Origin: Prosopocoilus inquinatus
Lineage: Eukaryota; Arthropoda; Insecta; Coleoptera; Lucanidae
Length of the DNA: 64,000 bases
Assembly (NCBI GenBank): GCA_036172665.1
Contig: CM069875.1
Span: 13,224,001-13,288,000 of the forward strand
Direction of reading: 5' to 3'
Position 1 is the stretch's first letter; every line of letters begins with the position of its first letter. The notes below the pieces were generated by a model, which made no database searches, had not been told where the DNA came from, and worked only from the letters and a program-made list of their open reading frames with translations. Shown here in pieces: positions 2,552-39,322 of this stretch. The translations under genes were made by a program, and so were the position numbers.

Positions 2552-2872
2552 TGTTACGTTTCTAGGGTTTAAATTTATTTATTTAAACGAATAAAACACT
2601 CGGTGAAAACTTAACCGTAATTTAATAACGCTTACAAACTATTTTATTTGTAACAATTTATTTACACGCTAAAATCTAACTTCGACGATCGCTGTTAGAA
2701 TTCGATTGACTCCTGAGTCCACTCTGGCCGATTTTATATCCTTTGCTGCCGTCTCGAATTTTCCAAGCTGGAAAATTCGAGTTTGTTCGATGGTGGCGTG
2801 ACGGCCAATGACGCATAAGGAACCTACTTCTTGACGCCTTCAGTTTGACAGTAAGCCGGGTGGCGCGCCACA
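2552..2872 (-). repeat. 3' LTR of gypsy element
   Basis: A 321 bp direct repeat of 9127-9451 differing by scattered substitutions and small indels. It is bounded by TG/CA-type ends. The level of difference suggests an old insertion, since LTRs are identical at integration. Confidence 0.93.
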
Positions 2873-3480
2873 CTGCCCCCTTCTTAAAAACGTTTCGTCT
2901 CGAAATGTTCCTGGTGAGTCTTGAAGAATTGTGTCGGAATCTACATGCTGGCCCATTCTTGCAACTTCCCGTCTGGAAGAAGTAGCAGTCCACGGTTTTG
3001 CTGTTGCTGACTATTGCCTGTGGGTGGTGGCTGCAGACTAGGACTTCAATTCCCGTTCTGTGGAAGATGACTTCCAGCATGCTTCGAATTACTCTCCAGT
3101 CTAGTCCGTCCAATCCGCAGCCCAATTTGGGGATGGCTAACTTCATCTGGTGGTTCTCTATTAGCTGTCTGCTCAGGCTATATAGGGCTCTCCAAATACT
3201 TTGATAATCAGGTTTACCGCTTGATGGCTTCTTAGTGACTAAATAATGCACGTGGCGCCTCCGATCTGCCGTCGAATCAATGATCTGCAGACTCTTGCCT
3301 ACCACGGGATGCTGTCTTCGGAGCTCCTCGATTTGGCCAAATTTCTTCCTAAACACCGAGCGATTCCTCTGGACATTTTCAGGTCTTCTGCTACGAAGAG
3401 GGCCAGACTGTACTCCAGTGGCACTTTAAAGAGATCTTGTTGCTTTTCCGTGGTCACTCCAAAACCGTGCCTTGCTTCCT
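2676..3480 (-). pseudogene. Macrodomain (TARG1/OARD1-like) plus CCCH zinc-finger ORF carried by the retrotransposon
   Basis: After the integrase stop, and starting no later than about 3480, a reading frame encodes a macrodomain of the TARG1/C6orf130 type. In that family the enzyme removes ADP-ribose from acidic side chains and deacylates O-acetyl-ADP-ribose. Visible motifs are VFRKKFG, YLVTKK and LAIPKLGCGLDGLDW. The first lysine cluster and the aspartate of GCGLD match the places where I recall TARG1's catalytic Lys and Asp. About 40 residues after the macrodomain comes a CCCH finger, C-x7-C-x5-C-x3-H (residues 124-142 of the longer frame), which usually binds RNA. One single-base frameshift at about 3355 separates the first part, which ends in MSRGIAR, from the rest. 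The frame runs through the polypurine tract into the LTR and stops at 2676; a start codon cannot be fixed. It occupies the env position, but no signal peptide or membrane segment is seen. Confidence 0.85.
2873..2890 (-). promoter_or_regulatory. Polypurine tract of gypsy element
   Basis: On the minus strand the bases directly before the 3' LTR read TTTTTAAGAAGGGGGCAG. This purine run is in the expected place for the plus-strand primer of reverse transcription. Confidence 0.75.
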
Positions 3481-3533: not shown

Positions 3534-4860
3534 TTATACTATCCCTTCATCTGCTTCTCCATGGTAAGGGGCTATCCGGTTGAAGTGGATTACTTTGGGT
3601 TTGCCATGGGGGACCTTCTTGATGCGGTAAACGACGTCGTTGATCCGTTTCATCACTTTGTAAGGACCTTCCCAAGAAGACTGCAGTTTTGGGGACAGGC
3701 CTCGACGTCTTTGGGGGTTATAAAGCCAGACCAGTGCTCCAGGTTGGTATCCCCCGTGTTGAGCGTTGATGTCATAGTGCTCCTTCATCCGATCGCTGGC
3801 CGTCTGTATATTGTGACGCACTTGGTTGTGGATGTCGTCCATTTTCCTGCGTAATTTGCTCACGTAATCTTCGTCGGCAGAGACTTCGCCAGGCTTCACA
3901 CCAAACTTCAGGTCGCAGGGCAGTCTCGGCTCTCGCCCGAATACCACTTTCGCCGGAGTCTCCCCTGTTGTCTCATGAATGGACGAGCGGTATGCCATTA
4001 GGAACAGGGGAATGTACGTGTCCCAGTCCCTCTGATGATCGGAAACGACCTTGGACAAATGTCGGTTGATGATTCTGTTGAACCTTTCCACCATTCCGTC
4101 TGACTGTGGGTGGAGTGCAGTTGTTCGAGTTTTTCGTACGCCGAGCAGAGTACACACGTTCTTGAACAAGGCCGATTCAAAGTTCCTTCCTTGGTCTGAA
4201 TGCAGTTCCATAGGTGCACCATACCGACTGATCCATTCCCTGACAAGGACTTCCGCAATAGTGACTGCCTCTTGGTTAGGTAGGGCGTAAGCTTCAACCC
4301 ACTTGCTAAAATAGTCCATTACCACGACGATATAGTTGTTTCCACCATTCGTTTCTGGAAATGGGCCGGCTACATCGATGGCAACTCTCTCAAAAGGACT
4401 TCCAACGTTGTACTGTCTCATGGGGGGCCTTGCCTCGCCTATGGGGACCGTTACTGGCTGCGCAGACTGCACACTTTCTGCACTAATTCTTCACGTCTTC
4501 CTTGCAGTTCACCCAGTAAAATCTTTCGCGCACCTTCTCCATAGTCTTCTTAACTCCCAGATGCCCTCCCGAAGTTCCATCGTGAAGTTCCCTCAGAACT
4601 TCTGGCACCCTATTCTTGGGGATTAGTAACTGTGTCTTCTGTTCCATGCCTTCCTGATTCTCTATGCTTCGTCTCAGAAGACCACGATCCAACACTATGG
4701 AGTCCCACTGCGCCCAGTATGATTTCACGGACGGTGCACATGGTGCTACCTCTTCCCAGATAGGCCTCGCGTCCCTGCTTTTCCACTCTAGCACTAATTT
4801 CAAATCCGGGTCGTTTTCCTGGTCTCTTCGCAGTTCTTCGCCTTGCCATTTGTCGTCAAC
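3534..4860 (-). pseudogene. Gypsy integrase (HHCC, DDE core, GPY/F module)
   Basis: The integrase inserts retroelement cDNA into the chromosome. The HHCC zinc finger is seen in HDGTSGGHLG and CRKCAVC. An in-frame TAG lies just before CRKC, at a place where the family usually has Trp. The DDE catalytic triad is present: AIDVAGPF, HSDQGRNF and DGMVERFNR. The C-terminal GPY/F module (GPYKVMKRIND) is present, and the frame ends at 3534 with GEADEGIV. A one-base indel in the C run near 4420 shifts the frame between the zinc finger and the catalytic core. With these two lesions the copy cannot make integrase without recoding. Confidence 0.9.
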
Positions 4861-5650
4861 AATGGCTGTCCCCGCAGTCGTACAAAATCGTACTCCTGAA
4901 GTCGTTCGATCCATCGTGCAACTTGCCCTTCTGGGTTCTTGAAACGGAGAAGCCATTTTAGAGCGGCATGGTCGGTCCTCAGGAGGAAGCGTCTACCGTA
5001 CAAGTACTTGTAAAAGTGTTCTATCGTTTTTACGACGGCTAGCAATTCCCTTCTTGTGACGCAATAGTTTCGTTCCGGCTTTGATAGGACTTTACTGAAG
5101 TAGCCGATCACCTTCTCTTGCCCCTCTTGTATCTGGGAAAGTATGCCACCGATCCCAACGTTGCTAGCATCTGTGTCCACGACGAATTTGCCTTCCGGGA
5201 GAGGATAACTCAGAATAGGAGCACTAATCAAGTACTGCTTTAGTTGTTCAAAGCCAATTTGACACTGTTGGTCCCATTCAAATGGACGACCTTCTTCAGT
5301 GAGTTTTGTCAACGGCTTAGCAATGTCTGCAAATCCAGGAACGTAGCGCCGATAGTAAGTGCACAGGCCAAGGAAACTCCTTATTTGGTGTTTATTTCTG
5401 GGAGTTGGCCATTTTTTCACCACCTGAATCTTCACAGGATCCACGGCGATTCCATTTCCATTAACAATGTGCCCCAGGTAATTCACTTCCTTCTGGAACA
5501 GGTGACACTTCTTGAGGCTAAGCTTTAGTCCAGCTCCGCGAAGCCGCTGGAACACTCCTTCCAGGTCCTTAGGTGGTCGTCGAACGTCTTTCCCACGACA
5601 ATTATGTCATCAATTATGTCATCAAGGTACACCATGCACGTCAGTTCTTC
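4861..5650 (-). pseudogene. Gypsy reverse transcriptase C-terminal part and RNase H
   Basis: The retained part begins at the YLDD catalytic motif of RT (near 5600-5630), then the thumb (NYLGHIVNGNGIAVDP) and RNase H (FVVDTDASNVGIGGIL, TRRELLAVV, RTDHAALKWLL). The fingers and most of the palm, roughly the first two thirds of RT, are absent: the protease ORF joins directly to YLDD, and out of frame. Right at the joint is a 12 bp tandem duplication (AATTATGTCATC type, 5600-5625). After RNase H (EGQVARWIERLQEYDF) the frame shifts and the usual linker to the integrase is missing. The element therefore cannot encode a working RT. Confidence 0.9.
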
Positions 5651-6620
5651 CCTTGGATCCATTTTCTACCTCGAATACATCTTGATAGCGGCCGATCAGA
5701 TTCTTTGCTTTTGTCTTCTGGTCTGGAGTCAATTCCTGGGCTGCTGACATAACCATTTCCCATAATTTCGTTGGGACTTTTGCTTCTGGCACGTTTGCTT
5801 CAAGTTGGCGGGAGATGGAGGACACCATGGTGCAGCTTCCCAAGATGGTTCCTTTCTTGATATTGACAGAGAAACAATTGACGTTCATCAGGCGGACAGG
5901 TACTTCCTTCTTCGCCGTCAACAACATTTTCACAACGAGGACTCCTCTTCCAATTCTCTGATCATCAGTATTAGGTTCAACCATAATGACTTGCCCATCT
6001 TGAAAAACACCGTCCAGTTTTGCGTCGACGATAACCTCAGTCCTGCTTGGTAATACAACGTCTTCAGCGAGGACTACTCGAGCGGCCACGTCTCCTTGTT
6101 GATGTAGAACCAACTCCTCATTATTGACCGCCATCACGCCACGCTTTAAGTCCAATTGAAACCCGTGGGCACACATGACGTCTATGCCCAAAATTGCCTC
6201 GTCCTCTATGTCTGCCACCAGTGCACGGTGTTTTATTGGAGTTGAACCAATGGTGATGATAACCTCTACTTCACCGTGGACAGTTGCTGATGTTCCAGTT
6301 GCAGTTTTCAGTGTCCACTTGGTCGGCTCGGTGCGTCCAAATGACTTGATGACGTCGGGTCTTAGGATGGTCTTCGTCGCACCCGTATCCAACAACATGG
6401 TGTGAGGAATATCATCAATGGTAACATCCACGAAGACACTGCTGGTTAACTGCCGTAGGGATATTACCTGTTTGGCTTTCGTCTTTGAGGGCCTTTGAAT
6501 ACGGGTCGACGTTTGCCCCTCTGCATCGACCCGGCTTAGTTTAACTGTGGCTTCCTTGGATCCTGTCTGGGCTTTGGACATCGCCTGCGAACATGTCCTT
6601 CCTCCTGGCAATTCCAACAC
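5622..6620 (-). pseudogene. Gypsy aspartic protease and N-terminus of pol
   Basis: A 332-codon frame encodes a retropepsin-type protease that would cleave the Gag-Pol polyprotein. The active site MLLDTGATKTIL lies about 80 residues in, and the flap/hydrophobic motif AILGIDVM follows. The C-terminal part leads to the start of RT (DQKTKAKNLIGRYQDVF), where the deletion cuts it off. The frame begins inside gag in the -1 frame, so the original protein was probably made by -1 frameshifting. The frame has no ATG at its start, consistent with that. Confidence 0.88.
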
Positions 6621-7914
6621 ACCAGCGGATTCTTCTGCTTGAAGACCTGTTCCACAATGCGGCGAACATCCTCGGCGGTGGTATACTCCCTGGGTCGCTC
6701 CTTTATAGCAGATCCCACCTTGGCGTTAGCGGATTCTTCCTCTTCTTCCTCTTGGAAGTCCATAGCCACTCGCACCTTGACATGCCCTCTTGAGACTCGT
6801 CTCGCCGCTTCAAATTCCAAGGCATAAGCCAATGCGTTCTTGGACGTCTTCGGATGGGTCATTCTCAATGCCTGCTGGTTGTCTGGGTCACGTATTCCAT
6901 CTATGAAGGTCTGCACCGTCAAACATTTGAGGAATTCAACAGGAGCTGTGGGATATGCCAACTGGGCCAGACGCGCTACGTCTGCTTCGAATTCCTGAAA
7001 ACTTTCTCCGGATTTCTGACAGCGATTCCTCAACTGCGCATGGTATACCTCGGTCAGATGGGCCTGTCCGTAACGCATTTCCATCCTATTCACCAGCTTG
7101 TCGAAGTCTTCTTGTTCCTCTGGGGGCATCGTCTGTAGCACATCGATAGCGTCCCCTCTCAAGGCCACAATTAACGAAGTGGCTTTTTTGCTGGACGTCC
7201 ATCTGTTTGCCTTTGCTGCTGCTTCGAACTGTTTGAAGTAGTTGGGCCAAGAAGACTTTCCATCGAACGTTGGTGGTCTTATTTTCAATTTCGAATTTTC
7301 TGCTGGTCCTTCCTCAATTCGGGTTCATTATTTTCTAGTATTTCTACTGGTGGCTGATCCCCGAACACTCGCAACCCCGCCATGATTTGTTCCAGATTTT
7401 TGATTTTGTTATCCTGCTGGAATATTATTTCTTCCACATTTTCTTGCAGGTTTCTTGTTTCTTCCGATATTTTTACCACTAGTTTATCTTCGAGTCCTTT
7501 CGTCTGTTCTAGAAATTCACCCTTCAAATTTCCAGACTGTTCTTGAAACTTCTTGTCCAAATTTCTGGATTGTTCTCGAAGTTCGTCCTTGAAATTTCCA
7601 AATTGTTCTAGAAACTTCTCGTCCAAATTTCTGGATTGTTCTCGAAGTTCGTCCTTGAAATTTCCAGATTGTTCTAGAAACTTCTCGTCCAAATTTCTGG
7701 ATTGTTCTCAAAATTCATCCTTCAAGATTTTATTAAAATCGGTGGGACCACACGAAAAGGAACGTCTCTGGATCTGACCAGCTGTCAACAAATCGCATCG
7801 GAGACACTGTTGAAGTGCGCCTTTCAAACCGCAGGTTTCTAACTCTCGTTCTTCCAATTCGGTTTTTAATTCGGCCACTTTTAAGTCTTTCAACAACACT
7901 TTTCTCGTAGCCAT
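6536..7914 (-). pseudogene. Gypsy gag (SAP-like start, coiled-coil repeats, CCHC knuckle)
   Basis: Gag forms the particle that packages element RNA. It starts at the ATG at 7914 with MATRKVLLKDLKV, and the first 40 residues resemble a SAP motif. Next come 22-residue charged heptad-like repeats (FLEQSGNFKDELREQSRNL), then the capsid-like region (PPTFDGKSSWPNYFKQFEA), and a zinc knuckle CWNCQEEGHVRRRC near the C-terminus. Lesions: an in-frame TGA at about 7708-7710, at a position that is Arg in the neighbouring repeats (CGA to TGA is the likely change), and a frameshift near 7290-7320 just before the capsid part. Confidence 0.88.
7496..7712 (-). repeat. 66 bp minisatellite inside gag
   Basis: Three tandem units of 66 bp, with a partial fourth, encode 22-residue repeats of the type NLDEKFLEQSGNFKDELREQ. 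The period keeps the frame and suits a lengthening coiled coil. The units are nearly identical, so the expansion looks more recent than the rest of gag. Confidence 0.85.
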
Positions 7915-8022
7915 TTTTTTGCGATACTGTACTTATTTAATAATCTGATTAAATTTAATTTACTTTAAATTGTTTTTTAGAAAATTTTTTTGTGCAAATC
8001 GTTCTTGATTGCAGTGAAAACC

Positions 8023-8087
8023 TCGAGCAGCCTCTGGACAGCTGTTTCAGCCCTGTTTGGGGCTTCTTCAGCAGAGACGTAGCTCGA
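8023..8087 (-). ncRNA. Hammerhead ribozyme, type I (copy A, intact core)
   Basis: Read on the minus strand: helix I outer part TCGAGC/GCTCGA (6 bp), internal loop TACGT opposite GCT, helix I inner part CTCTG/CAGAG (5 bp), core CTGAAGA, helix II AGCCC/GGGCT with loop CAAACA, core GAAA, a very short helix III (AC-AGCT-GT), then TC with cleavage expected after that C. All conserved core bases are present. ACAGCTGT is self-complementary, so two tandem copies could also pair as a dimeric hammerhead, as described for ribozymes with short helix III. Confidence 0.9.
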
Positions 8088-8335
8088 CATTCCCACTGCA
8101 GACCAAAAACGACTTGCCCAATTTATTCGCAATTGCGATGTAAGAATGATGAACAGATAAAATAGCGACATCTTACTATCGCTTTTTGACCTGACATTGC
8201 AGTAGGATAGACAAATTGAAGCGGGATTTGCTCCTAATAAGTCCCCCATGCAAGGCGGTCATGCTTGCTGTCAAAGCATGATGAAAGTTTTTAGAAAAAT
8301 TGTGTGCAAATCGTTCTTGATTGCAGTGAAAAACC

Positions 8336-8400
8336 TCGAGCAGCCTCTGGACAGCTGTTTCAGCCCTGCTTGGGGCTTCTTCGGCAGAGACGTAGCTCGA
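8336..8400 (-). ncRNA. Hammerhead ribozyme (copy B, core mutated)
   Basis: Same architecture as copy A with all helices pairing, but the core reads CCGAAGA instead of CTGAAGA. The second core base is essential in known hammerheads, so this copy is probably inactive. Confidence 0.82.
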
Positions 8401-8647
8401 CATTCCCACTGCAGACCAAAAATGACTTGCCCTATTTATTCGCAATTGCGATGTAAGAATGATGAACAGATAAAATAGCGACATCTTACTATCGCTTTTT
8501 GACCTGACATTACAGTAGGATAGACAAATTGAAGCGGGATTTGCTCCTAATAAGTCCCCCATGCAAGGCGGCCATGCTTGCTGTCAAAGCATGATGAAAG
8601 TTTTTAGAAAAATTTTGTGCAAATCGTTCTTGATTGCAGTGAAAACC

Positions 8648-8712
8648 TCGAGCAGCCTCTGGACAGCTGTTTCAGTCCTGCTTGGGGCTTCTTCAGCAGA
8701 GACGTAGCTCGA
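8648..8712 (-). ncRNA. Hammerhead ribozyme (copy C, helix II mismatch)
   Basis: CTGAAGA and GAAA are intact and helix I pairs fully. Helix II is AGCCC/GGACT with one central C-A mismatch. It could retain some activity. Confidence 0.82.
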
Positions 8713-8850
8713 CATTCCCACTGCAGACCAAAAACGACTTGCCCAATTTGTTCGCAATTGCGATGTAAGAATGATGAACAGATAAAATAGCGACATCTTA
8801 CTATCGCTTTTTGACCTGACATTGCAGTAGGATAGACAAATCTTCAGCAT

Positions 8851-8901
8851 GCTGAAGAAGCCCCAAGCAGGGCTGAAACAGCTGTCCAGAGGCTGCTCGA
8901 G
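8851..8901 (+). ncRNA. Hammerhead ribozyme, truncated (copy D)
   Basis: Plus-strand copy holding CTGAAGA, helix II, GAAA, helix III and the 3' strand of helix I. The 5' strand of helix I is replaced by the palindromic junction, so the motif cannot fold fully. Confidence 0.75.
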
Positions 8902-9107
8902 GTTTTCACTGCAATAAAGAACGATTTGCACAAAATTTTTCTAAAAACTTTCATCATGCTTTGACAGCAAGCATGACCGCCTTGCATGGGGGACTTATTA
9001 GGAGCAAATCCCGCTTCAATTTGTCTATCCTACTGCAATGTCAGGTCAAAAAGCGATAGTAAGATGTCGCTATTTTATCTGTTTAAATTGTTTATTTATT
9101 TGCACAA

Positions 9108-9126: not shown

Positions 9127-9451
9127 TGTTACGTTTCTAGGGTTTAAATTTATTTATTTAAACGAATAAAACACTCGGTAAAAACTTAACCGTAATTTAA
9201 TAATCCTTACAAACTAATTTATTTGTAACAATTTATTTACACACTAAAATCTAACTTCGACGATCGCTGTTAGAATTCGACTGACTGCTGAGTCTACCCA
9301 GGGCGATTTTGTATCCTTTGCTGCCCTCTCGAATTTTCCAACGCTGGAAAATTCGAATTTGTTCGATGGTGGCGTGACGGCCGATGACGCATAATAATGA
9401 ACCGACTTCTTGACGCCTTCAGTATGACGTGGTGCTGAGTGGCTCGCCACA
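9127..9451 (-). repeat. 5' LTR of gypsy element
   Basis: A 325 bp direct repeat of 2552-2872. As the 5' LTR it should hold the element promoter; I could not pinpoint a TATA box with confidence. Confidence 0.92.
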
Positions 9452-18182: not shown

Positions 18183-18336
18183 CAAATTGAAGCGGATTTC
18201 CTACCTAATAAGTCCCCCATGCAAGGCGGCCATGCTTGCTGTGAAGGCATAATGAAAGTTTTAAAAATTTTGTTGCAAATCGTTTTTGATTGCAGTGAAT
18301 ACTTCGAACAGCCTCTGTACAGCTGTTTCAGCCCTG
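18183..18336 (-). repeat. Hammerhead-unit fragment
   Basis: A diverged minus-strand fragment of the 312 bp unit. It keeps the 3' half of the ribozyme (TACAGCTGTTTCAGCCC on the plus strand) and is cut within helix II. Confidence 0.8.
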
Positions 18337-24904: not shown

Positions 24905-25330
24905 TATTATTATGAAAAGAATTACATTTATTTAAAATATAATCAACTTTATCATGAGGTAAAATTAATAAAATATCGTCAACATATCTATAATATAAAT
25001 TTTGATCAAAAAATGACCAAAATTAGCCAATTAATGATACTTTTTTCTAATTTTTGCATAACAATTTCAGCTAAAGCAGGAGAAAGAGGTGATCCCATTG
25101 CTGTACCAAAAGTTTGTTTATAAAATTTATCATTAAATGCAAAATAAGAAGTATCAAGACATAAAGTTATTATTTCTACAAAATTATTATATGAAATGTC
25201 AGTATATTCTTTATTCTTTTTCAAAATTTAGAAAATTATTTAAAGTATCAGCGTTAACAAAATTACTCAACTTTCCTATATTAAAATCTAATAACTTTTC
25301 TTATGTTAAATTTAATAATGCTAAGAATTT
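24905..25330 (-). pseudogene. Penelope-like element, reverse transcriptase palm
   Basis: The minus strand encodes YTDISYNNFVEIITLCLD, then FYKQTFGTAMGSPLSPALAE and, after a small frame change, YYRYVDDILLILPHDKVDY with the catalytic YVDD. This matches Penelope-type RT rather than LINE or LTR RTs. The region toward 25330 is decayed, and the N-terminal RT part is missing. Confidence 0.86.
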
Positions 25331-25521
25331 TGAACATATAAAATAGCGACATCTTACTATCGCTTTTTGACCTGACATTGCAGTAGGATAGACAAATTGA
25401 AGCGGGATTTGCTCCTAATAAGCATGGGCGCCTTGCATGGGGGACTTATTAGGAGCAAATCCCGCTTCAATTTGTCTATCCTACTGCAATGTCAAGTCGT
25501 TTTTGGTCTGCAGTCGGAATG

Positions 25522-25586
25522 TCGAGCTACGTCTCTGCTGAAGAAGCCCCAAGCAGGGCTGAAATAGCTGTCCAGAGGCTGCTCGA
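25522..25586 (+). ncRNA. Hammerhead ribozyme, type I (copy E)
   Basis: CTGAAGA, helix II AGCCC/GGGCT with loop CAAGCA, and helix I TCGAGC/GCTCGA plus CTCTG/CAGAG are intact. After GAAA a C to T change turns the short helix III pair into a wobble. Confidence 0.85.
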
Positions 25587-25833
25587 GGTTCTCACTGCAA
25601 TCAAAAACGATTTGCACAAAAATTTTTCTAAAATTTTCATTATGCTTTGACAGCAAGCATGGTCGCCTTGCATGGGGGACTTATTAGGAGCAAATCCCGC
25701 TTCAGTTTGTCTATCCTACTGCAATGTCAGGTCAAAAAGCAATAGTAAGATGTCGCTATTTTATATGTTCATCATTCTTACATCGCAATTGCGAATAAAT
25801 TGGGCAAGTCGTTTTTGGTCTGCAGTGGGAATG

Positions 25834-25898
25834 TCGAGCTACGTCTCTGCTGAAGAAGCCCCAAGCAGGGCTGAAACAGCTGTCCAGAGGCTGCTCGA
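25834..25898 (+). ncRNA. Hammerhead ribozyme, type I (copy F, intact)
   Basis: All core bases and every helix are intact. This and copy A (8023-8087) are the best candidates for self-cleavage. Confidence 0.9.
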
Positions 25899-25940
25899 GG
25901 TTCTCACTGCAATCAAAAACGATTTGCACAAAAAAAAATT

Positions 25941-26365
25941 TTGCTAAGAATTTTGTTGGGTGGCTGTAACTATGAACCCATGGATGACAGACAATAATTA
26001 ATAAACTAAAATAGTAAAGGAGACTGTGGTTTAAGAAGTAATTGAAATTAATCTTCGCCCACAATAATTTTATATCCATAGATACGTATTTCGGCAGCTA
26101 AGCTGCCATCTGCAGTATGCTGCCAACTTAAAAGCTCTTAAAAAGATCTAAAAACAACCTACTCATTCTAATAAAATCATAGAAATGTCTAAAACTAACA
26201 AGAATCTAATCATCCTAAAATATATACCGGCTGTTTCAAATTGGGTGTGCACTGAAGGGATCTCCTAAATCGTAAGAGATACAAATTTGGTTAAATGGAA
26301 GAAAAGTTGCACGAATCAATGTTTAACTCGTATTAATTAACAGAATGATTTTTTTATTATATATG
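25941..26365. other. Non-coding spacer with a dispersed ~130 bp repeat
   Basis: 26228-26358 starts GGCTGTTTCAAATTGGGTGT and recurs at 35059-35194; related ends (CTGTTTCAAATTC) occur in the element at 45826-46461. No gene. Confidence 0.6.
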
Positions 26366-29370: not shown

Positions 29371-29484
29371 TTCTCTTCAATAGAATCCTGGAAAGTGCTT
29401 GTTAGTTTCCCGTGGACTAGAATTGGTGGTGATTTGTTTGTAACTTGACACATCACTGGAAATTTTCGAGAATTTATAATAAGC

Positions 29485-30345
29485 ATGGAATTCCAAACGA
29501 TTGAAAAGTTAAGAGGAGCCGAAAATTGGAGTATCTGGAAATTTGCTATAAGAAACTTATTACGTGGAACTGAAAATGCGTATGAAGTATGTGTTGGTGA
29601 CATTGAGAAACCAGAAGAGTTAGCGAAGAATGCATCAAAAGATGAAGTGGCTGCTTATAATGCTAAGATTAAAATTTGGGATAAAGGCGATCGTTCTGCT
29701 AGTCAAATTATTGTAAAAACGTTGGATGTTAAAATAATGGCATTACTGGTTAGATGCGATTCTGCTAGAAGTATGTGGATCAAGTTACACGCAATCTTTG
29801 AGCAACAAACTAAACAAGCTGCTCATGTTGTTCAAGCTGAATTCTTCAGTTTTGCAATGAATCCATCGGATGATATGGTCACGCACATTGCAAAGTTTGA
29901 AGCAATGGTTTTAAGATTGCAGCAGTTAAATTTGAAGCCAGATGAGTCTTCTCTAATGGTAAAATTATTGGACACTTTACCGGATGACTATGAGAGTTTG
30001 CGACAAGCATGGTGGGCTAGACCTGAGGAACAGCAAACTCTTTCAATTCTGGTAGGTCTTCTGACATCAGACGAAAAGCGTCGGCAACAAAACTCTAAAA
30101 GAAATGATGAGCTGGTGGCATTGACGGCTTCTAAAGGAAAAGCGCAAGGAAAGAGTAAGCAAGCCTGTCACTGGAAAAATAAGCATTTACGAACAAATCA
30201 GGAATTTGACACTGACAGGAGTAAGCTTCCTTATTAATTTAATAATTTAAATGTTATAATTGCGGCGGTAAGGGACATTTTCGACGAAGTTGTCCAAGTA
30301 AACAGAAGCAGAAGAAGAAAGAAGAAGTGAACAAGCATTTATTGG
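29485..30345 (+). pseudogene. Copia gag
   Basis: The ATG at 29485 opens a 250-codon frame starting MEFQTIEKLRGAENWSIWKF, a UBN2/Gag-like domain with the conserved LPDDYESLRQAW. The frame stops at 30235. The CCHC knuckle (CYNCGGKGHFRRSC) follows at about 30250-30295 in another frame, so a frameshift lies between. Another shift near 30325 leads into the protease frame. Gag and pol were probably one continuous ORF, as usual in copia. Confidence 0.88.
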
Positions 30346-30352
30346 GGAAATT

Positions 30353-31871
30353 ATGTACACAGAAGCCGAAGATAATTTTTGGATCGTTGACACAGGAGCA
30401 ACAGATCATTTGACTTATCATGAAGAATGGTTTTCATCGCTTGAATTTTTTGAAACTCCCATCAAAGTTCACATCGGCGACAAATCGACCATGGATGCAC
30501 TTGGGAAAGGCAGAATTAAATTTAAGTCATTAGTAGACGGAAAATGGTTGGCATGTTACATGGAAAATGTTTTATTCGTCCCGGCAGCTCGTAGAAATTT
30601 ATTTTCTGACATGTGCGCTTAACAAAGGCATGTCATTTATTTCGTCTAAAACGGCATGCAAATTTGTTAAGGACGGTGTAGTCAAAGCGTGTGGAAAACG
30701 TTTTGGGCAGTTGTTTAAAATGACCGTTCATGTAATTCAGCCAAAAATATCTTCAGTGAGCGAAGCAAACCATCAGTCAAAAGATGCATTACAAATTTGG
30801 CATGAACGTTTAGGCCATCAAAATAAACGTCAAGTGCATAAAATTTTGAAGCAAAATGGTATTGACGTTCCAGTGGAAAATGAATACTGTGAAGCATGTA
30901 TTGAAGGAAAGCAACACAGAAACACCTTCCACACTCGTGAGCAAAGAGCCAAGGAACCAGGAGAACTTATTCACGCCGATCTTTGCGGTCCCATGGAATG
31001 CACTTCTTTAGGTGGAACTAAGTATTTTATCTGTTTCAGATGTGATTATTCGAGATTGAAAATTGTTAATTTTCTTAAAGAGCTGAAGTTTTTGGAAAAA
31101 TCACTGAAATGTTGCCAATGATTAAAAATCAGTATGGACGATCTGTGAAGGCAATTCAATGTGACGGTGGACGTGAATTTAACAACAAGAATGTACAAGA
31201 ACTTCTTAAGTCTAATGGTGTGAAATTTGTTGTCACGAATCCATATACACCAGAACAGAACGGTTGTGCAGAGCGTAGTAACAGAACAATTGTTGAACTT
31301 GCACGAACGATGCTGCTAGCAAAGAAGTTACCAAAAGTACTGTGGGCAGAAGCGGTAAATACAGCAGTTTATTTGTTAAATCGCACAGGCCCAAGTAAAA
31401 TCGAATCTAAAACACCGTACGAAATTTTCACAGGAAAATCAGTTCATCTAAATAGACTTCATGTTTTCGGTACTGAATGTCACGTACATATCCCGAAGGA
31501 ATCTCGTAAGAAGTGGGATGTAAAAGGGCAACGTGGAATTTTTGTGGGTTACTTAAATTGTTCGAAGCAGAAATGTAATATTTACACCAGAAAGTACTTC
31601 CAAAATCTTGTCAATTCTCTCCAGTAAAATAGATGACAGTTCTGTAATTGATGAAATTCAAACTTCTTCATCTGAAGAAGCAACAACCGAAATAATAAAA
31701 GAGCGACTCAGAGATCGAACAAAAATCAAGCCACCAGATCGTTTAATTGAAATGATGTTAGGTGAAGTTGAAGAGCCCAGAAATTTTGATGAAGCAATGA
31801 AATCAGCAGACAAGCAGTTTTGGAAAACAGCGATGGAAGACGAAATGGCATCTCTGGAAGAAAATTCGACG
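30353..31871 (+). pseudogene. Copia protease and integrase
   Basis: The protease has the active site WIVDTGATDHL at the start of the frame. After a shift near 30600 comes the pre-integrase HHCC finger (WHERLGHQNKRQVH, CEACIEGKQHR) and the first catalytic Asp in HADLCGPM. After a shift near 31100 the integrase core continues with IQCDGGREF and EQNGCAERSNRT, the other two DDE residues. The C-terminal part ends by a shift near 31610. A TAG at 31872-31874 follows EENST, where the family usually has Trp. Confidence 0.9.
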
Positions 31872-31874
31872 TAG

Positions 31875-33293
31875 TCTCTAACCGAATTACCAGACGAACG
31901 GAAGCCAATTTCTAATCGTTGGGTATATCGCGTAAAACGAAAAGCTGATGGTGAAATTGCACGTTACAAAGCACGCCTTGTTGCTCGAGGCTACAGTCAA
32001 CAAAAAGGCATCTATTATAACGAGACATTTAGTCCTGTTGCTCGTTTTGACACAATAAGAGCAGTACCAAGTATTACGGCAAATGAAAATTTGCAGCTAG
32101 GTCAGTTTGACGTTAAGACAGCATTTCTAAATGGTATGCTCGAGGAAGAGATATATATGATGCAACCAGAGGGCTTTGAAGATGGTACTAGTCGTGTATG
32201 CAAGTTACACAAAAGTCTATATGGACTAAAACAATCTCCCAGATGTTGGAACAAAAAATTCAAGGAAGTACTGACGAATTTCGGACTGCGTGAAAGTGCA
32301 GCAGACCCCTGTATGCTTCATCGCATTGAAGAACATAAGAAATTTATAGTGATTTTATATGTGGATGACGGGCTGATTGCTGCAACCCATAAAAATGATG
32401 TCGAAAAATTTTTAGAAGCTAAAATCAGAATTTAAAATAACTATTGAACCTGTGGGATATTTCTTAAATATTTTGATTCAAAGAAGAGATAATGGAACAA
32501 TTTTTATTAATCAGGAGACATATGCGAAAGGCGTACTAAAAAGATTTAACATGGCAGATGCTAATCCTGTTTCAATCCCAATGAAAAAATATTTGCAGAT
32601 CGAGAAAGAAAAGATTATCAGCTTAACAACTGCCCCATACAGAGAAGCTGTTGGTTGTTTAATGTATTTAGCTGTTGTTACTCGTCCAGATATCGCATTT
32701 GCTGTATCTTACGTGTCACAATTTCTTGAGAAACCTGAGGATAGACATTGGGAATTGGTGAAACGAATTATGAAGTACATTAAAGGTACAACGAACTTGG
32801 ATATTCAATATAAAATAAATGAAAAACCCGGGGAAATCGAAGCATATAGTGATGCTGATTATGCAAGTGAACCAATCACACGACGCTCTGTAAGCGGAAT
32901 TGCTATTAAATACAGTGGTGGAGTGATTTTATGGGCCAGTAAAAAACAGCAGAGTGTATCGTTGTCAACAACGGAGGCAGAATACATTGCTGCAAGTGAA
33001 GCAAGCAAGGAAATTGTTTGGCTGAGTTGTCTGTTTGGTGAAATTGCACCATTAAAAATCACACCAACTTTGTTAATAAACAATGTAAGTGCGATCAAGC
33101 TTGCAAAGAATAGTGAATTTCATAAACGGTCAAAGCACATAGACGTCCGTTTTCATTTTATACGCGAAAAGATTCAAGAAGTCGTCTGAAAGTAGAACAT
33201 GTAATGAGCAAGAATCAAGTCGCGGATATTTTGACGAAACCCATTCCGCGTGTGCTATTTAATCGACTGCGAGATTTGTTAGGCATGACTTAA
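31875..33293 (+). pseudogene. Copia reverse transcriptase and RNase H
   Basis: RT starts with WVYRVKRKADGEIARYKARL and VARGYSQQKG. It includes QFDVKTAFLNGMLEEEIYM, YGLKQSPRCWN and the catalytic ILYVDDGLIAA. A shift near 32435 leads to LKRFNMADANPVSIPM, CLMYLAVVTRPDIAFAV and RNase H with YSDADYASEP and LSTTEAEYIAASEASKE. A last shift at about 33185 precedes KNQVADILTKPIPR and the stop at 33291-33293. With repair of a few lesions all motifs would be in order, so decay is moderate. Confidence 0.9.
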
Positions 33294-34737: not shown

Positions 34738-36536
34738 ATAACCTACAGATGAGAGCAAATTACACCCACACACCACAAGTTAAAAGCACTTTAGGAAAAT
34801 TTTATCTCGGAGAATCCTTATCCGATATCCAGTGGAAATGCATACATATATATTATTTTATTTTTCAGGATTTTTAGGTATCAAATAACAGGGAATTTAT
34901 ACTTATTTATTCGTTAGAAAGACACCTTTTTTTGGGTCTTTGGACTTTTCATTTCCGTATTTCCGTGTTGTTGGTTAGCTCTTATTTGTAAGGTTTTTCT
35001 GACGGTTAATTGTAGGTGTTTACATGTTAATTTGTATCTACGTACATTTAGACATATATCGGCTGTTTCAAATTGAGTGTGCACTTAACGGATCTCCTAA
35101 AGCGTAAGAGATACAAATTCAGTTAAATGGAAGAAAAGTTGCACGAATCAATTTCTAACTCGTATTCATTAACACAATGATTTTTTTCTTATTCTTGAGA
35201 TATTAATGAAAATGTAAAAAAGTCGATTTTCTTTTTTCCTCTGTATCTCTTCTATTATACATAATTTTGAAATTCTGATTTAATTTTCTACAGGCACTTT
35301 TTGATTCTGCTTTGAAAGGAAGTGGCATAATTGAAGTCAATCGTTTCGTCTTTCCATGACCATCATCATTTTCGATTTTTTAAATACAACGTATATCTTT
35401 TATTCTATTCGATAGCATTTTTTCTCCTGATTGGAATGGCATATCACACACACTTAATAGTTAATATTAATCTAAAGCTTAAATAAAACAGATATTTAGA
35501 TGAAAATTTTATTTAATACTTAATTTCAAATTGTTATTTCATTTTCTTAATCATAATAAACTATTTAAAGTTTTTCTGTATCGTTATTTTAATAATCACT
35601 GCACTTACGAAAATGAATTTTTACCGAGAAATATCGGGTGATTCTAATATAACTTGCTAGACTAATATCTCAGCTTTGGTATAGGAATGAAAAAGCCTAG
35701 TGTTTAATTTTGACTTGCACGGTTGGATTAAAAGAAAAAGTGAATACTAATTATACTAAAAATTTTTAGAAATTACTGAATAGTGTCTTTTACAAAGACA
35801 TTGGCAGCTAAAAAATAAATTTGAAAGATACTTTCTATAACAATGTAATTTTTTTAATATCTTTAGCACTCAGTGGCTCTCAACACTTCACTATCTTTAA
35901 TTTTTTTAAACATGGTTAAGTCCAAAAATGGTACTAAATTTTGTCACCCATTTTGACGAGGTGAATTACCAGTTGAAGTTTGGCATGTTATATCGGGACC
36001 TCCCTGCATAATTTAAACAGGATAAAGTAGGCTTTGTACTTTGGACATTTAGACAGTGACTAGCATTAAGATAAATAATAAGGGGGAACTAAGAAGGCGA
36101 ATAATATATTCTTGCAGAAATGTTTCGCGAATTCATATTCGACACGGTAGACCACACACAGGATTAACAACGAAAGTGTGTTTTGAAAACAGTGGAGGAC
36201 ATTTCGAGGATTTACTTTAATTTATTTATTTCACTTTTTTTATTTCACAAATTTATTTTATTCTTGTAATTTAATGTTTATACTGCTGTATATTTGGTTT
36301 GTGTTAACCATCTAATATCATATAGATAATATTTATTGATTGTTCGTCTTCCGAGAATTGAATGTTAGTTGTTAATACTTAACAAATAAGAAAAGAAAAT
36401 TGTATCAGTTTTTTTCTGTCATATTTTAACTTTACTTTGAAAAAAAGGTATTAAGTATCAGACATCACCGAAATCACTAGAAAAAAAAATGCTATCGAAT
36501 AGAATAATAAAAAGAAGCTATTAATCAATAGCGAAA
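34738..36536. other. Non-coding stretch with repeats
   Basis: It holds copy 3 of the ~195 bp repeat (34853-35037, opposite strand) and the ~130 bp repeat at 35059-35194. CTATTCGATAGCATTTTT at ~35405 is mirrored at ~36482-36505, just before the broken end of the gypsy integrase, so a ~1.1 kb element may have cut it. No gene. Confidence 0.5.
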
Positions 36537-36539
36537 CGT

Positions 36540-36966
36540 TGAGTGTTCGCTCGACCATTCCATCCGATTGTGGCCGAAATGGAGTCGTTCGTGTTTTTTC
36601 AATGGATAGTAGTCTACATATTTCGAGAAATATTTCGCATTCGAATTGCCTGCCCTGATCAATGTGAATAATATCAGGCGCTCCAAAACGGCAAATAAAT
36701 TCATCCACTAATTTCCTTGCAATCGTATTTGCTGCTTTCTGATCAGGCAGATCATAATCCTCCGTCCACTTTGTAAAATAGTCTGCCACAGCCATCATGT
36801 ATGTGGTGCCTTGATTGGTTACTGGTAGTGGTCCTAATAAGTCAATAGCTACGCGTTCTAATCTTCGAGTTGGAATACGTTTGTAGTTTCGTTCTCGGTG
36901 AGGGAGCTGGAGTTTTTCTTCGGCAGCAATCTTCACAGTCACGGCACCAAAGCGCAACGTCTCCAT
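36540..36966 (-). pseudogene. Gypsy 2 integrase core, truncated
   Basis: It contains LERVAIDLLGPLPVTNQG (first Asp), IIHIDQGRQFECEIF (second Asp) and PQSDGMVER (Glu), after which similarity stops. The C-terminal part and GPY/F module are gone. The HHCC finger lies in the decayed sequence before 36966. Confidence 0.88.
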
Positions 36967-37051
36967 TCATGTTACTCCAATAGTATCTATCTTGTATACG
37001 CGCCAATGTTTTCGCTACCCTGCGTCCAATTTACAATGCATAATAATTTTT

Positions 37052-38340
37052 TTATGATCCGGGCTTTAATTGGATTATCTGTTTTGCTTCTTCGGAAAGG
37101 TTATCTTCATCTTTAGAATTCGATTCCAAAGCTCTAATTACTGATATGCAAACTGAATCCTTTCGCTGTTCCTTCCACATTGTCGTATCTTCTTGTTCCA
37201 CTTCCATTTGACTGATCACACTCACTTCTTCTCCCTCCGAAAACTGCAGTTCTCCGCACTGTGAACAAGGATACCTTGACAGCGCATCAGCATTACCATG
37301 TAACTTTCCAGGACGGTGGATGACGTTCATATTAAATTCGGCGAGCAACTCAAGCCACCGAGCTACTTGTCCCTCCGGCTCTCGGAAGTTACGCAACCAA
37401 ATAAGACAATTATGATCCGTACATGCCGTAAATTCGTTACTCATTAAATAAACGCGAAAATGTCGACACGCATTTACCAACGCTAATAGTTCTCGACGTG
37501 TTGTACAATATTTACGTTCTTGTTTTGTCAAAGCGCGACTAAAATAAGAAACGACACGTTCCTTACCATCCTGTATATGACTTAACACAGCACCTAGAGC
37601 CATATAAGCTAGAATTGGGGCATTTGTTAACAAGTTTTTCAGTTTGTGAAAAGCAATGTCACATTCCTTTGACCAAACAAATCGTTCACTTTTATTTAAA
37701 AGTTTATGGAAGAGATCTGCTATATGTGCAAAGCCTTTAATAAATCTTCTATAATAAGCAGCCAATTCGAGAAACGCACCCACTTCTGTTAAATTCTTAG
37801 GATTTGGCTACTTTTTGATTACACGTACTTTTGATGGGTCTGGAGAAACACCTTGTTCATTAACTACATGTCCTAGAAATTGCACTTCGCGCGCAAATAA
37901 TTTGCACTTGGCCGGATTAACTTTGAGACCTGCATCCCTTAACCCCGCAAAAACTTCACAGTCTTTGTAACTGTTCATCAAAATTTTTCCTGTACACGAT
38001 CACATCATCGAGGTAAACAAGAGCAGTATGCCAATGCAGTCCGTCTAAGACCACATCCATAAGTCTCTGAAAGGTTGCCGGTCCATTACGTACTCCGAAT
38101 GGTAAAACATTAAATTCGTACAAACCTGTACCTATCGAAAATGCCGTTTTTTTCGGTGTTCTTGGTCTACTTCACATTGTCAATAGCCTGTTTGTAAGTC
38201 AAGTGCTGAAAATAAAGAAGCATTCGATAGAGAATCTAATATAGCATCAATTCTGAGTAATGGATAACTATCTTTAATAGTAACATCATTTAATTTTCTA
38301 AAGTCCACGTAAAATCTCAAGGTATCGTCTTTCTTTCGCA
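37052..38340 (-). pseudogene. Gypsy 2 reverse transcriptase and RNase H
   Basis: RT starts near 38335 (VRKKDDTLRFYVDFRKLND, then SALDLQTGY followed by a stop) and includes LVYLDDVIVY near 38000 with several frame changes. From 37783 an open frame covers the connection (YYRRFIKGFAHIAD) and RNase H (GAVLSHIQDGKERVV, TRRELLALVNACRHF, CTDHNCLIWL) to RPGKLHGNADALSR, the usual end of RNase H. The RNase H start seems to have lost a few residues around its first Asp. Confidence 0.87.
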
Positions 38341-39222
38341 CCAGAACAACTGGTGAGCATCATGGTGATGACGATGGACTATTGGTAGTCGTCGTGGTGC
38401 TTGACGTATTGGTTTAGCTTCATTCGTATCTATGCGATGTCGAAGAACATTTGTGCGACCTGTATCAGTTTTATTTTTAGCAATCGCATTTTCAAATTGA
38501 TTTAATCGTTTCTTAGCGCGAATTAAGTCGCTTGCCGACAAATGCTTTGCAGCTTGCGACCAACCAAATTTGTCCGCTATTTCTTTCGTTAATGTCTTTT
38601 CGCACTCCTCCGTATGACTAACTACAGAGCAAGGAGAAGCTAGACCTAGGCGCGTGTTACGATGGATAGTCACCGGTTCAGACGATACATTTTTAAGTAA
38701 TACTGAACCTTCGAGCCCGTTTATTACTGCACGACTGAGAATACACCCTAATTTGTCAAGATGGAAAGGGTCCGATTCAATGAGATTCACATTCACATTT
38801 AATTGTCCGTTGGCAACGTGTACATGAACTACTATTTCGGAACGTGCAGGTACTATCATTGCTTGGCACAATAATACAGGCGAACTGATATCTAAGTTTT
38901 TAACAACAAAGTCTCGTACTACAATACAACCAGCAGCCGGATCAATGCGGCATTTATGTTTCCTAATAAAATCGCATCCGATTACACATTGTTCAGCTAA
39001 ATTTTTACAAATGGTCACTTCGGAAACCGCGGTTAATTGTCCAAAGGTGATTTGAACAGTTCCCACACCTACTACCTGCAATGGGGTGCCACTCGCCTGT
39101 ATTTCCGTCGTTTTTGACCGAAGGATACGCCGACTACCAATTTGCACCCATACACTCTCGCGATTGAAACATCGCGACGCACCAGTGTTAATAAAAAAGT
39201 TGTTGCATGTCCGTTTATTTTT
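38317..39222 (-). pseudogene. Gypsy 2 protease and N-terminus of RT polyprotein
   Basis: The retropepsin active site reads FFINTGASR near 39195, with Asn where Asp is required, so the catalytic residue is lost. Downstream are TICKNLAEQCVIGCDFI (the second conserved strand) and a long spacer with HRNTRLGLASPCSVV and LIRAKKRLNQFENAI leading to the RT start (RHRIDTNEAKPIRQAPRR). The frame breaks at about 38330. Confidence 0.82.
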
Positions 39223-39322
39223 CCCGGCACTGGAACAACTGGAACATATTTCGTCCCCTCTGATATTTGGACCTATCTTGAGGGGCTAAAACCGGCCCTG
39301 GTTAGTTTTCCGATTTTTCGAA

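Follow-up and report, generated by a model that had tools for sequence, protein, structure and literature searches.

A TARG1-type macrodomain is a recurrent Pol module of gypsy retrotransposons in the genome of Prosopocoilus inquinatus

Gypsy elements in the genome of the beetle Prosopocoilus inquinatus carry a TARG1-type macrodomain as a recurrent module of Pol. The domain was noticed in one element of the window, the 64,000-nucleotide stretch of contig CM069875.1 analysed here, and the Pol of this family almost certainly ends in the order integrase, TARG1-type macrodomain, CCCH finger. Human TARG1 (OARD1, C6orf130; terminal ADP-ribose protein glycohydrolase 1) removes ADP-ribose marks. On balance, the whole arrangement is best explained by a mono-ADP-ribosyl hydrolase embedded in Pol that would clear the element's own material, its activity, its packaging and its substrate all being predicted.

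The element is a Ty3/gypsy LTR element located at window positions 9451-2552 on the minus strand, with several disrupted frames. Open reading frames and Pfam matches of the window copy give gag, protease, RT-RNase H and integrase in gypsy order, and the Pol order PR-RT-RH-IN places the element in Ty3/gypsy (Metaviridae). Its 5' LTR (9127-9451, minus strand) and 3' LTR (2552-2872, minus strand) both have TG...CA termini and are 90.8% identical over an alignment of 325 columns. The gag region (6536-7707, minus strand; ORFs 7707-7285 and 7324-6536, frames broken) contains a CCHC zinc knuckle (zf-CCHC E=1.1e-5) and a 33-bp-periodic repeat, whose units at 7505-7725 on the minus strand encode a repeated Gln/Glu/Lys-rich stretch. 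It is followed, on the same strand, by the protease with a post-protease linker (5622-6725; gag-asp_proteas E=1.5e-9), the C-terminal part of RT with RNase H (4800-5606; RT_RNaseH E=5.6e-34, RVT_1 positions 169-205) and the integrase with its H2C2 zinc-binding, rve core and p58_C parts (3534-4992; Integrase_H2C2 E=2.3e-14, rve E=2.2e-12, Integrase_p58_C E=6.7e-12).

Behind the integrase lie, again on the minus strand, the macrodomain (3036-3457), a CCCH zinc finger of the form C-x7-C-x5-C-x3-H (2931-2999), the polypurine tract AAGAAGGGGGCAG read from the sequence immediately 5' of the 3' LTR (2873-2885), and the LTR itself. This is the order given by the first-pass annotation, which had pointed to TARG1/OARD1 motifs and a CCCH pattern between integrase and polypurine tract; both are present. 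It had also placed these features of a gypsy element at 2676-3480; macrodomain and finger are indeed encoded there, but the end of the reading frame falls inside the 3' LTR (2872-2552). No env ORF stands behind pol in the window family, where the LTR comes directly after the finger, and no chromodomain appears among the Pfam matches of the ORFs scanned from the window and from other families.

The window copy is old, because its LTRs have diverged by 9% and an array of nested repeats occupies 7974-9083 in the 5' region of the element. This array consists of units of about 313 bp, some direct and some inverted, that do not belong to the element; similar pieces are scattered through the window near positions 18183, 21515, 25322-25954 and 55646. 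The copy is also broken, since the N-terminal part of the macrodomain (about 3457-3359) lies in a different frame from the rest; gag and pol are likewise spread over more than one frame. The flanking tetranucleotides, GTAT and ATAT, agree at three of four bases. Elsewhere in the window, a THAP domain ORF is located at 167-463 on the minus strand (E=6.5e-15), and a Copia-like element with gag, integrase, RT and RNase H can be read from ORFs at 29449-33189 on the plus strand. A second gypsy element, truncated in integrase, occupies 36451-39285 on the minus strand. No macrodomain is present between its PR and RT or between its RH and IN, the two sites that can be read, so the domain is not required by every gypsy element.

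The class of the domain is evident from several comparisons. The window ORF 3425-2676 matches human OARD1 (PDB 4j5r) over query residues 24-130 with E=5.5e-18, and a profile of 15 element macrodomains recovers OARD1 chains from PDB over nearly the whole domain with E about 5e-57. DarG, the next family, follows at E 1.2e-11; the element macrodomains are thus nearer to OARD1 in sequence than to the other macrodomain classes in this profile search. A DarG-type antitoxin was considered and rejected, as NF048014 scores 38.4 bits against a curated cutoff of 250. Structure prediction, which had been recommended together with the protein search, leads to the same family: an AlphaFold model of window fragment 3356-2898, in which the N-terminus is left out, has a mean pLDDT of 75.9 (low in the finger part), and its best eight Foldseek matches are all TARG1, with TM 0.60-0.62 by query length. 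The Pfam Macro model is insensitive for these domains, giving 13.2 bits on the window copy (cutoff 22) and exceeding the cutoff in only 5 of 10 element ORFs scanned. In 15 element rows, identity to human OARD1 is 36-50%.

Conservation of individual residues points to enzymatic function. Every one of the 49 distinct element loci keeps Lys84 and Asp125 (human TARG1 numbering), the catalytic residues of TARG1. In an alignment of 54 rows, where five loci are entered twice, this pair is present in all 54, Asp20 is kept in 49 rows and Ser35 of TARG1 is replaced by Ala in 50. As judged from sequence, the element macrodomain is therefore probably an active hydrolase; details of its binding may differ from those of TARG1, given the Ala that most element rows have at position 35.

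The finger is characteristic of the window family. ORF 3425-2676 also matches the CCCH finger of CPSF4 (E=1.5e-7), and Pfam zf-CCCH scores 27.1 bits on the window finger, above the cutoff of 20.5. The finger pattern is conserved in all 29 other window-family copies inspected, and it has no match in 32 macrodomain ORFs scanned from other loci (L029-L060).

Moreover, the unit is maintained in other copies of the family. A search of the 650-Mb assembly yielded 4979 candidates; the best 150 of these were scored, all with E<1e-100, and 51 of the 150 fall within open frames of at least 1400 aa. Twenty copies were fetched. Nineteen were chosen for long frames and L028 for its closeness, which means that they are not a random sample. 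In 18 of the 20, RT-RNase H, integrase, macrodomain and finger share a single open frame that extends beyond the finger; the exceptions are L025, which ends late in the macrodomain, and L028, which ends in integrase. An LTR match follows the domain in all 20, which come from many contigs. The Pol frame continues into the LTR in most of them, and the polypurine tract is the same or nearly the same at the same place in 19; the remaining copy, L022, gave no match to the pattern searched. The first-pass annotation had called for a search for copies flanked by pol and LTRs, and had regarded family copies that lack the ORF as a sign of a one-off capture; every fetched copy has the domain beside integrase.

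The proposed comparison of substitution rates gives a similar picture. Across 19 window-family copies (171 pairs, on aligned codons, in copies mostly selected for long frames), dN/dS is 0.19 in both RT-RH and finger plus tail, 0.23 in H2C2-IN and 0.26 in the macrodomain; one of the 19 has a stop in the macrodomain. Macrodomain and finger are hence about as constrained as RT-RH and integrase. Between lineages, NG86 estimates for the macrodomain are 0.10-0.29 in six pairs with dS>0.3 and 0.24-0.61 in seven close pairs. In divergent pairs RT is more constrained than the macrodomain, as in L043/L045 (RT 0.025 versus macrodomain 0.13). The E-values and the other copies together exclude a chance likeness. 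A one-off capture, a later insertion into the element or an assembly artefact was suggested by the window copy, which viewed alone is broken and odd. This explanation has practically no probability left and is rejected, as the domain lies between integrase and LTR in every fetched copy, from many contigs, under a constraint similar to that of RT and integrase. The macrodomain-finger unit is a maintained part of an element gene. The earlier view of it as an element gene thus holds as regards maintenance, but in other copies the unit is the C-terminal part of Pol and not a separate gene.

The view of a single gypsy family with this domain proved too narrow: the family is real, but many further gypsy lineages carry the domain, at three sites in Pol. 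Human OARD1 gives 1287 candidates in the genome, the best 150 of which were scored, all with E<1e-26, and 55 of the 150 fall within frames of at least 1400 aa. The fetched loci form 11-14 macrodomain groups at identity cutoffs of 60-75%, the window family included, which leaves 10 to 13 further lineages depending on the cutoff. L037 is a decayed copy near L042.

The sites were called by Pfam or tblastn. Site I, after integrase, is used by the window family and by L041 and its kin. In the L041/L169 copy the LTRs show no difference over 235 aligned bases and an AATA flank stands on both sides, which indicates that this copy moved recently. At site II the macrodomain lies between RNase H and integrase, as Pfam matches show for L052; in L063/L064 RNase H directly precedes the macrodomain, and the fetched stretch ends short of integrase. 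Site III is the interval between protease and RT, found in eight scanned ORFs (L045, L043, L049, L053, L054, L056, L055 and L059). RT is present in all eight, and the protease model reaches E<=0.001 in seven, being weak in L056. In L034/L042, RT lies downstream in another frame, and L046/L047 are assigned to their site by likeness only.

The L045 and L052 families additionally carry an ORF for a chuvirus-type fusion glycoprotein behind pol (L171:580-1767 and L172:203-1999; Pfam Monjiviricetes_fusion E 9.9e-124 and 3.6e-160). The fusion ORF recurs at the same place in a second copy of either family (L174 and L175; 98.8% and 99.0%). No LTR pair is present within the fetched stretches of L045 and L052. 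PMC10084718 (excerpt) states that there is no clear evidence for the capture of chuvirus-type glycoproteins by Gypsy elements. Together with the THAP domain of the window and OARD1, the chuvirus-type env would point to an animal host, probably an arthropod; 30-base TTAGG and TCAGG patterns do not occur in the assembly.

The history of the domain differs from that of RT. In a macrodomain tree of 14 element rows, human OARD1 as the single animal sequence, and bacterial and IMG/VR outgroups, in which branches are long, the window family groups with L049-L059 (96/82), and a single clade of the two site I members, window and L041, is rejected (p-AU 0.017). The RT trees, which compare families of the P. 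inquinatus genome only and not named gypsy clades, place the window family near L041, at 98/96 before the second gypsy of the window was added. With that element included, window and L041 no longer form a clade of their own and belong to an open fork within a group of four (89/93). The RT tree rejects the window family with L049-L059 (p-AU 0.044) and also L052 with both (p-AU 0.0007); forcing the site III families together is not rejected (p-AU 0.22). Since the two kinds of tree disagree, the module either moved between families or was captured repeatedly, and the disagreement suggests that it moved between gypsy families.

How the domain first entered these elements bears on the same trees. 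Several independent captures of host OARD1, in place of one capture followed by exchange among elements, would agree with the three insertion sites, with the rejection of a single site I macrodomain clade and with the tree without bacterial outgroup, where human OARD1 falls among the element domains beside L041/L048 (90/85). With bacterial outgroups, a branch instead separates the 14 element rows from all other rows, weakly (78/80). Elements, human OARD1 and the IMG/VR contig L099 separate from the rest at 96/91, and a grouping of elements and human that leaves L099 out is likewise not rejected (p-AU 0.25), in a tree with one animal sequence only. Independent captures are a rather unlikely origin. 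L099, which clusters with human OARD1 (87/66), may come from a eukaryote and be misfiled.

Searches with whole human OARD1 and with its last 69 residues (best 150 of 1287 and of 1129 candidates scored, respectively) gave no host OARD1 gene among the matches fetched as possible host exons or genes: L037, L061, L062 and L176-L179 all turned out to be element copies. The host OARD1 may be split by introns and give matches weaker than those scored, or it may be absent. Outside the beetle, a single-protein scan of IMG/VR gave no match, and alignment scans recovered TARG1-like macrodomains in 71 IMG/VR contigs (L098-L168) and 31 prokaryote loci (L067-L097). RT and integrase queries matched none of these 102 loci, which for this reason serve as outgroups only.

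What the hydrolase would do for the element can be outlined as follows. Host ADP-ribosyltransferases would modify element material during reverse transcription and integration. Produced and packaged together with RT and integrase and delivered alongside them, the hydrolase would strip ADP-ribose off phosphorylated RNA or cDNA ends, or off acidic residues of Gag and Pol; the window family's CCCH finger would keep the enzyme attached to RNA. That the target is the nucleic acid or the Pol complex of the element itself is a tentative proposal. It is preferred over that of a freely acting antagonist of the host, since both the amount and the location of a domain built into Pol are tied to those of RT and integrase.

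Such an antagonist would be cut from Pol and would remove ADP-ribose from host proteins, blunting an antiviral or anti-transposon response. Macrodomains of alphaviruses and coronaviruses are thought to blunt the host response in this manner. An antagonist of this kind would fit the conserved catalytic pair and the fusion-protein ORFs of L045 and L052, whose families may live like viruses. A trans-acting antagonist is, however, more often a separate ORF, and here the domain forms part of Pol, at three sites, with its amount and place set by RT and integrase, which makes this alternative unlikely. A further possibility is a module without hydrolytic activity that recognises ADP-ribose, or RNA, and anchors the integration complex at PARylated chromatin or at DNA breaks. 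The adjoining CCCH finger and the post-integrase place in the window and L041 families, which resembles that of the chromodomain in chromoviruses (PMC12440569, excerpt), would agree with it. However, a mere binder would not need Lys84 and Asp125, which every element locus keeps, and the sites after protease and before integrase fit targeting poorly; this is quite improbable. The preferred reading is still that of a Pol-borne hydrolase acting on the element's own material. The first-pass annotation had supposed the capture of a host ADP-ribose hydrolase, perhaps against host ADP-ribosylation or for RNA packaging; its observation is confirmed, and its interpretation is partly supported.

Comparison with known systems clarifies what is new in this arrangement. 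The element domains resemble TARG1/OARD1 over the whole domain by profile, in predicted fold, in Lys84/Asp125 and in sequence identity, but TARG1 is a free-standing cellular enzyme, and here the domain lies within the Pol of a retroelement, with a CCCH finger added in the window family. The dUTPase of retroviruses is a housekeeping enzyme located in Pol at different sites in different lineages; the element macrodomain likewise varies in site, although the enzyme is another one. Ray-finned fish harbour epsilon-like retroviruses with macro-domain proteins as additional ORFs (PMC4977317, excerpt, citing Basta et al. 2009). These also combine an LTR retroelement with a macrodomain, but they are endogenous Retroviridae with the domain in an additional ORF and no macrodomain class stated in the excerpt; the beetle elements are of Metaviridae type, with a TARG1-class domain inside Pol at three sites.

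Other elements have acquired different enzymes. Ty3/Gypsy elements of orchids carry an AlkB m6A demethylase, active in vitro, in a separate ORF2 (PMC9289625, excerpt). They too have gained an eraser of a nucleic-acid mark with its cofactor residues kept, but they are plant elements whose ORF2 encodes an RNA demethylase, whereas here the mark is ADP-ribose, the domain is inside Pol and the activity is predicted. LTR retrotransposons of bdelloid rotifers share ORF3 modules with a DEDDy exonuclease and a GDSL esterase (PMC5408684, excerpt); enzyme modules apparently exchanged among element families are a common feature, but ORF3 is separate and the excerpt mentions no macrodomain. Chromoviruses, with a chromodomain at the C-terminus of Pol, likewise place an extra domain after integrase, but it is a chromatin reader and not an ADP-ribose hydrolase (PMC12440569, excerpt). 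In the open-licence literature searched, no report of TARG1 or a macrodomain in gypsy elements was found. Macrodomain-bearing LTR retroelements have a precedent in fish.

The wider meaning concerns the relation between retroelements and their hosts. Animal hosts and RNA viruses are known to contend over ADP-ribosylation; within the literature searched, a corresponding role against the LTR retroelements of invertebrates has not been established. It is conceivable, and we put it forward with caution, that host ADP-ribosylation restricts retroelements in the animal lineage of this beetle and that TARG1 is a transferable counter-module, derived from animal OARD1, passed among gypsy elements to three Pol sites with its catalytic pair always kept, and acting as an eraser in the particle that would protect RNA, cDNA ends or integrase from ADP-ribose. 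A hydrolase inside Pol, in several families, at three sites and under integrase-like constraint predicts that loss of the Asp alone would carry a cost in transposition, and with the Asp lost an ADP-ribosylated substrate should show up. The element domains would also supply natural and diverse TARG1s for finding the real substrates of TARG1, whether protein, DNA end or RNA end. A TARG1-related domain in several LTR families hints that ADP-ribose marks are used against such elements.
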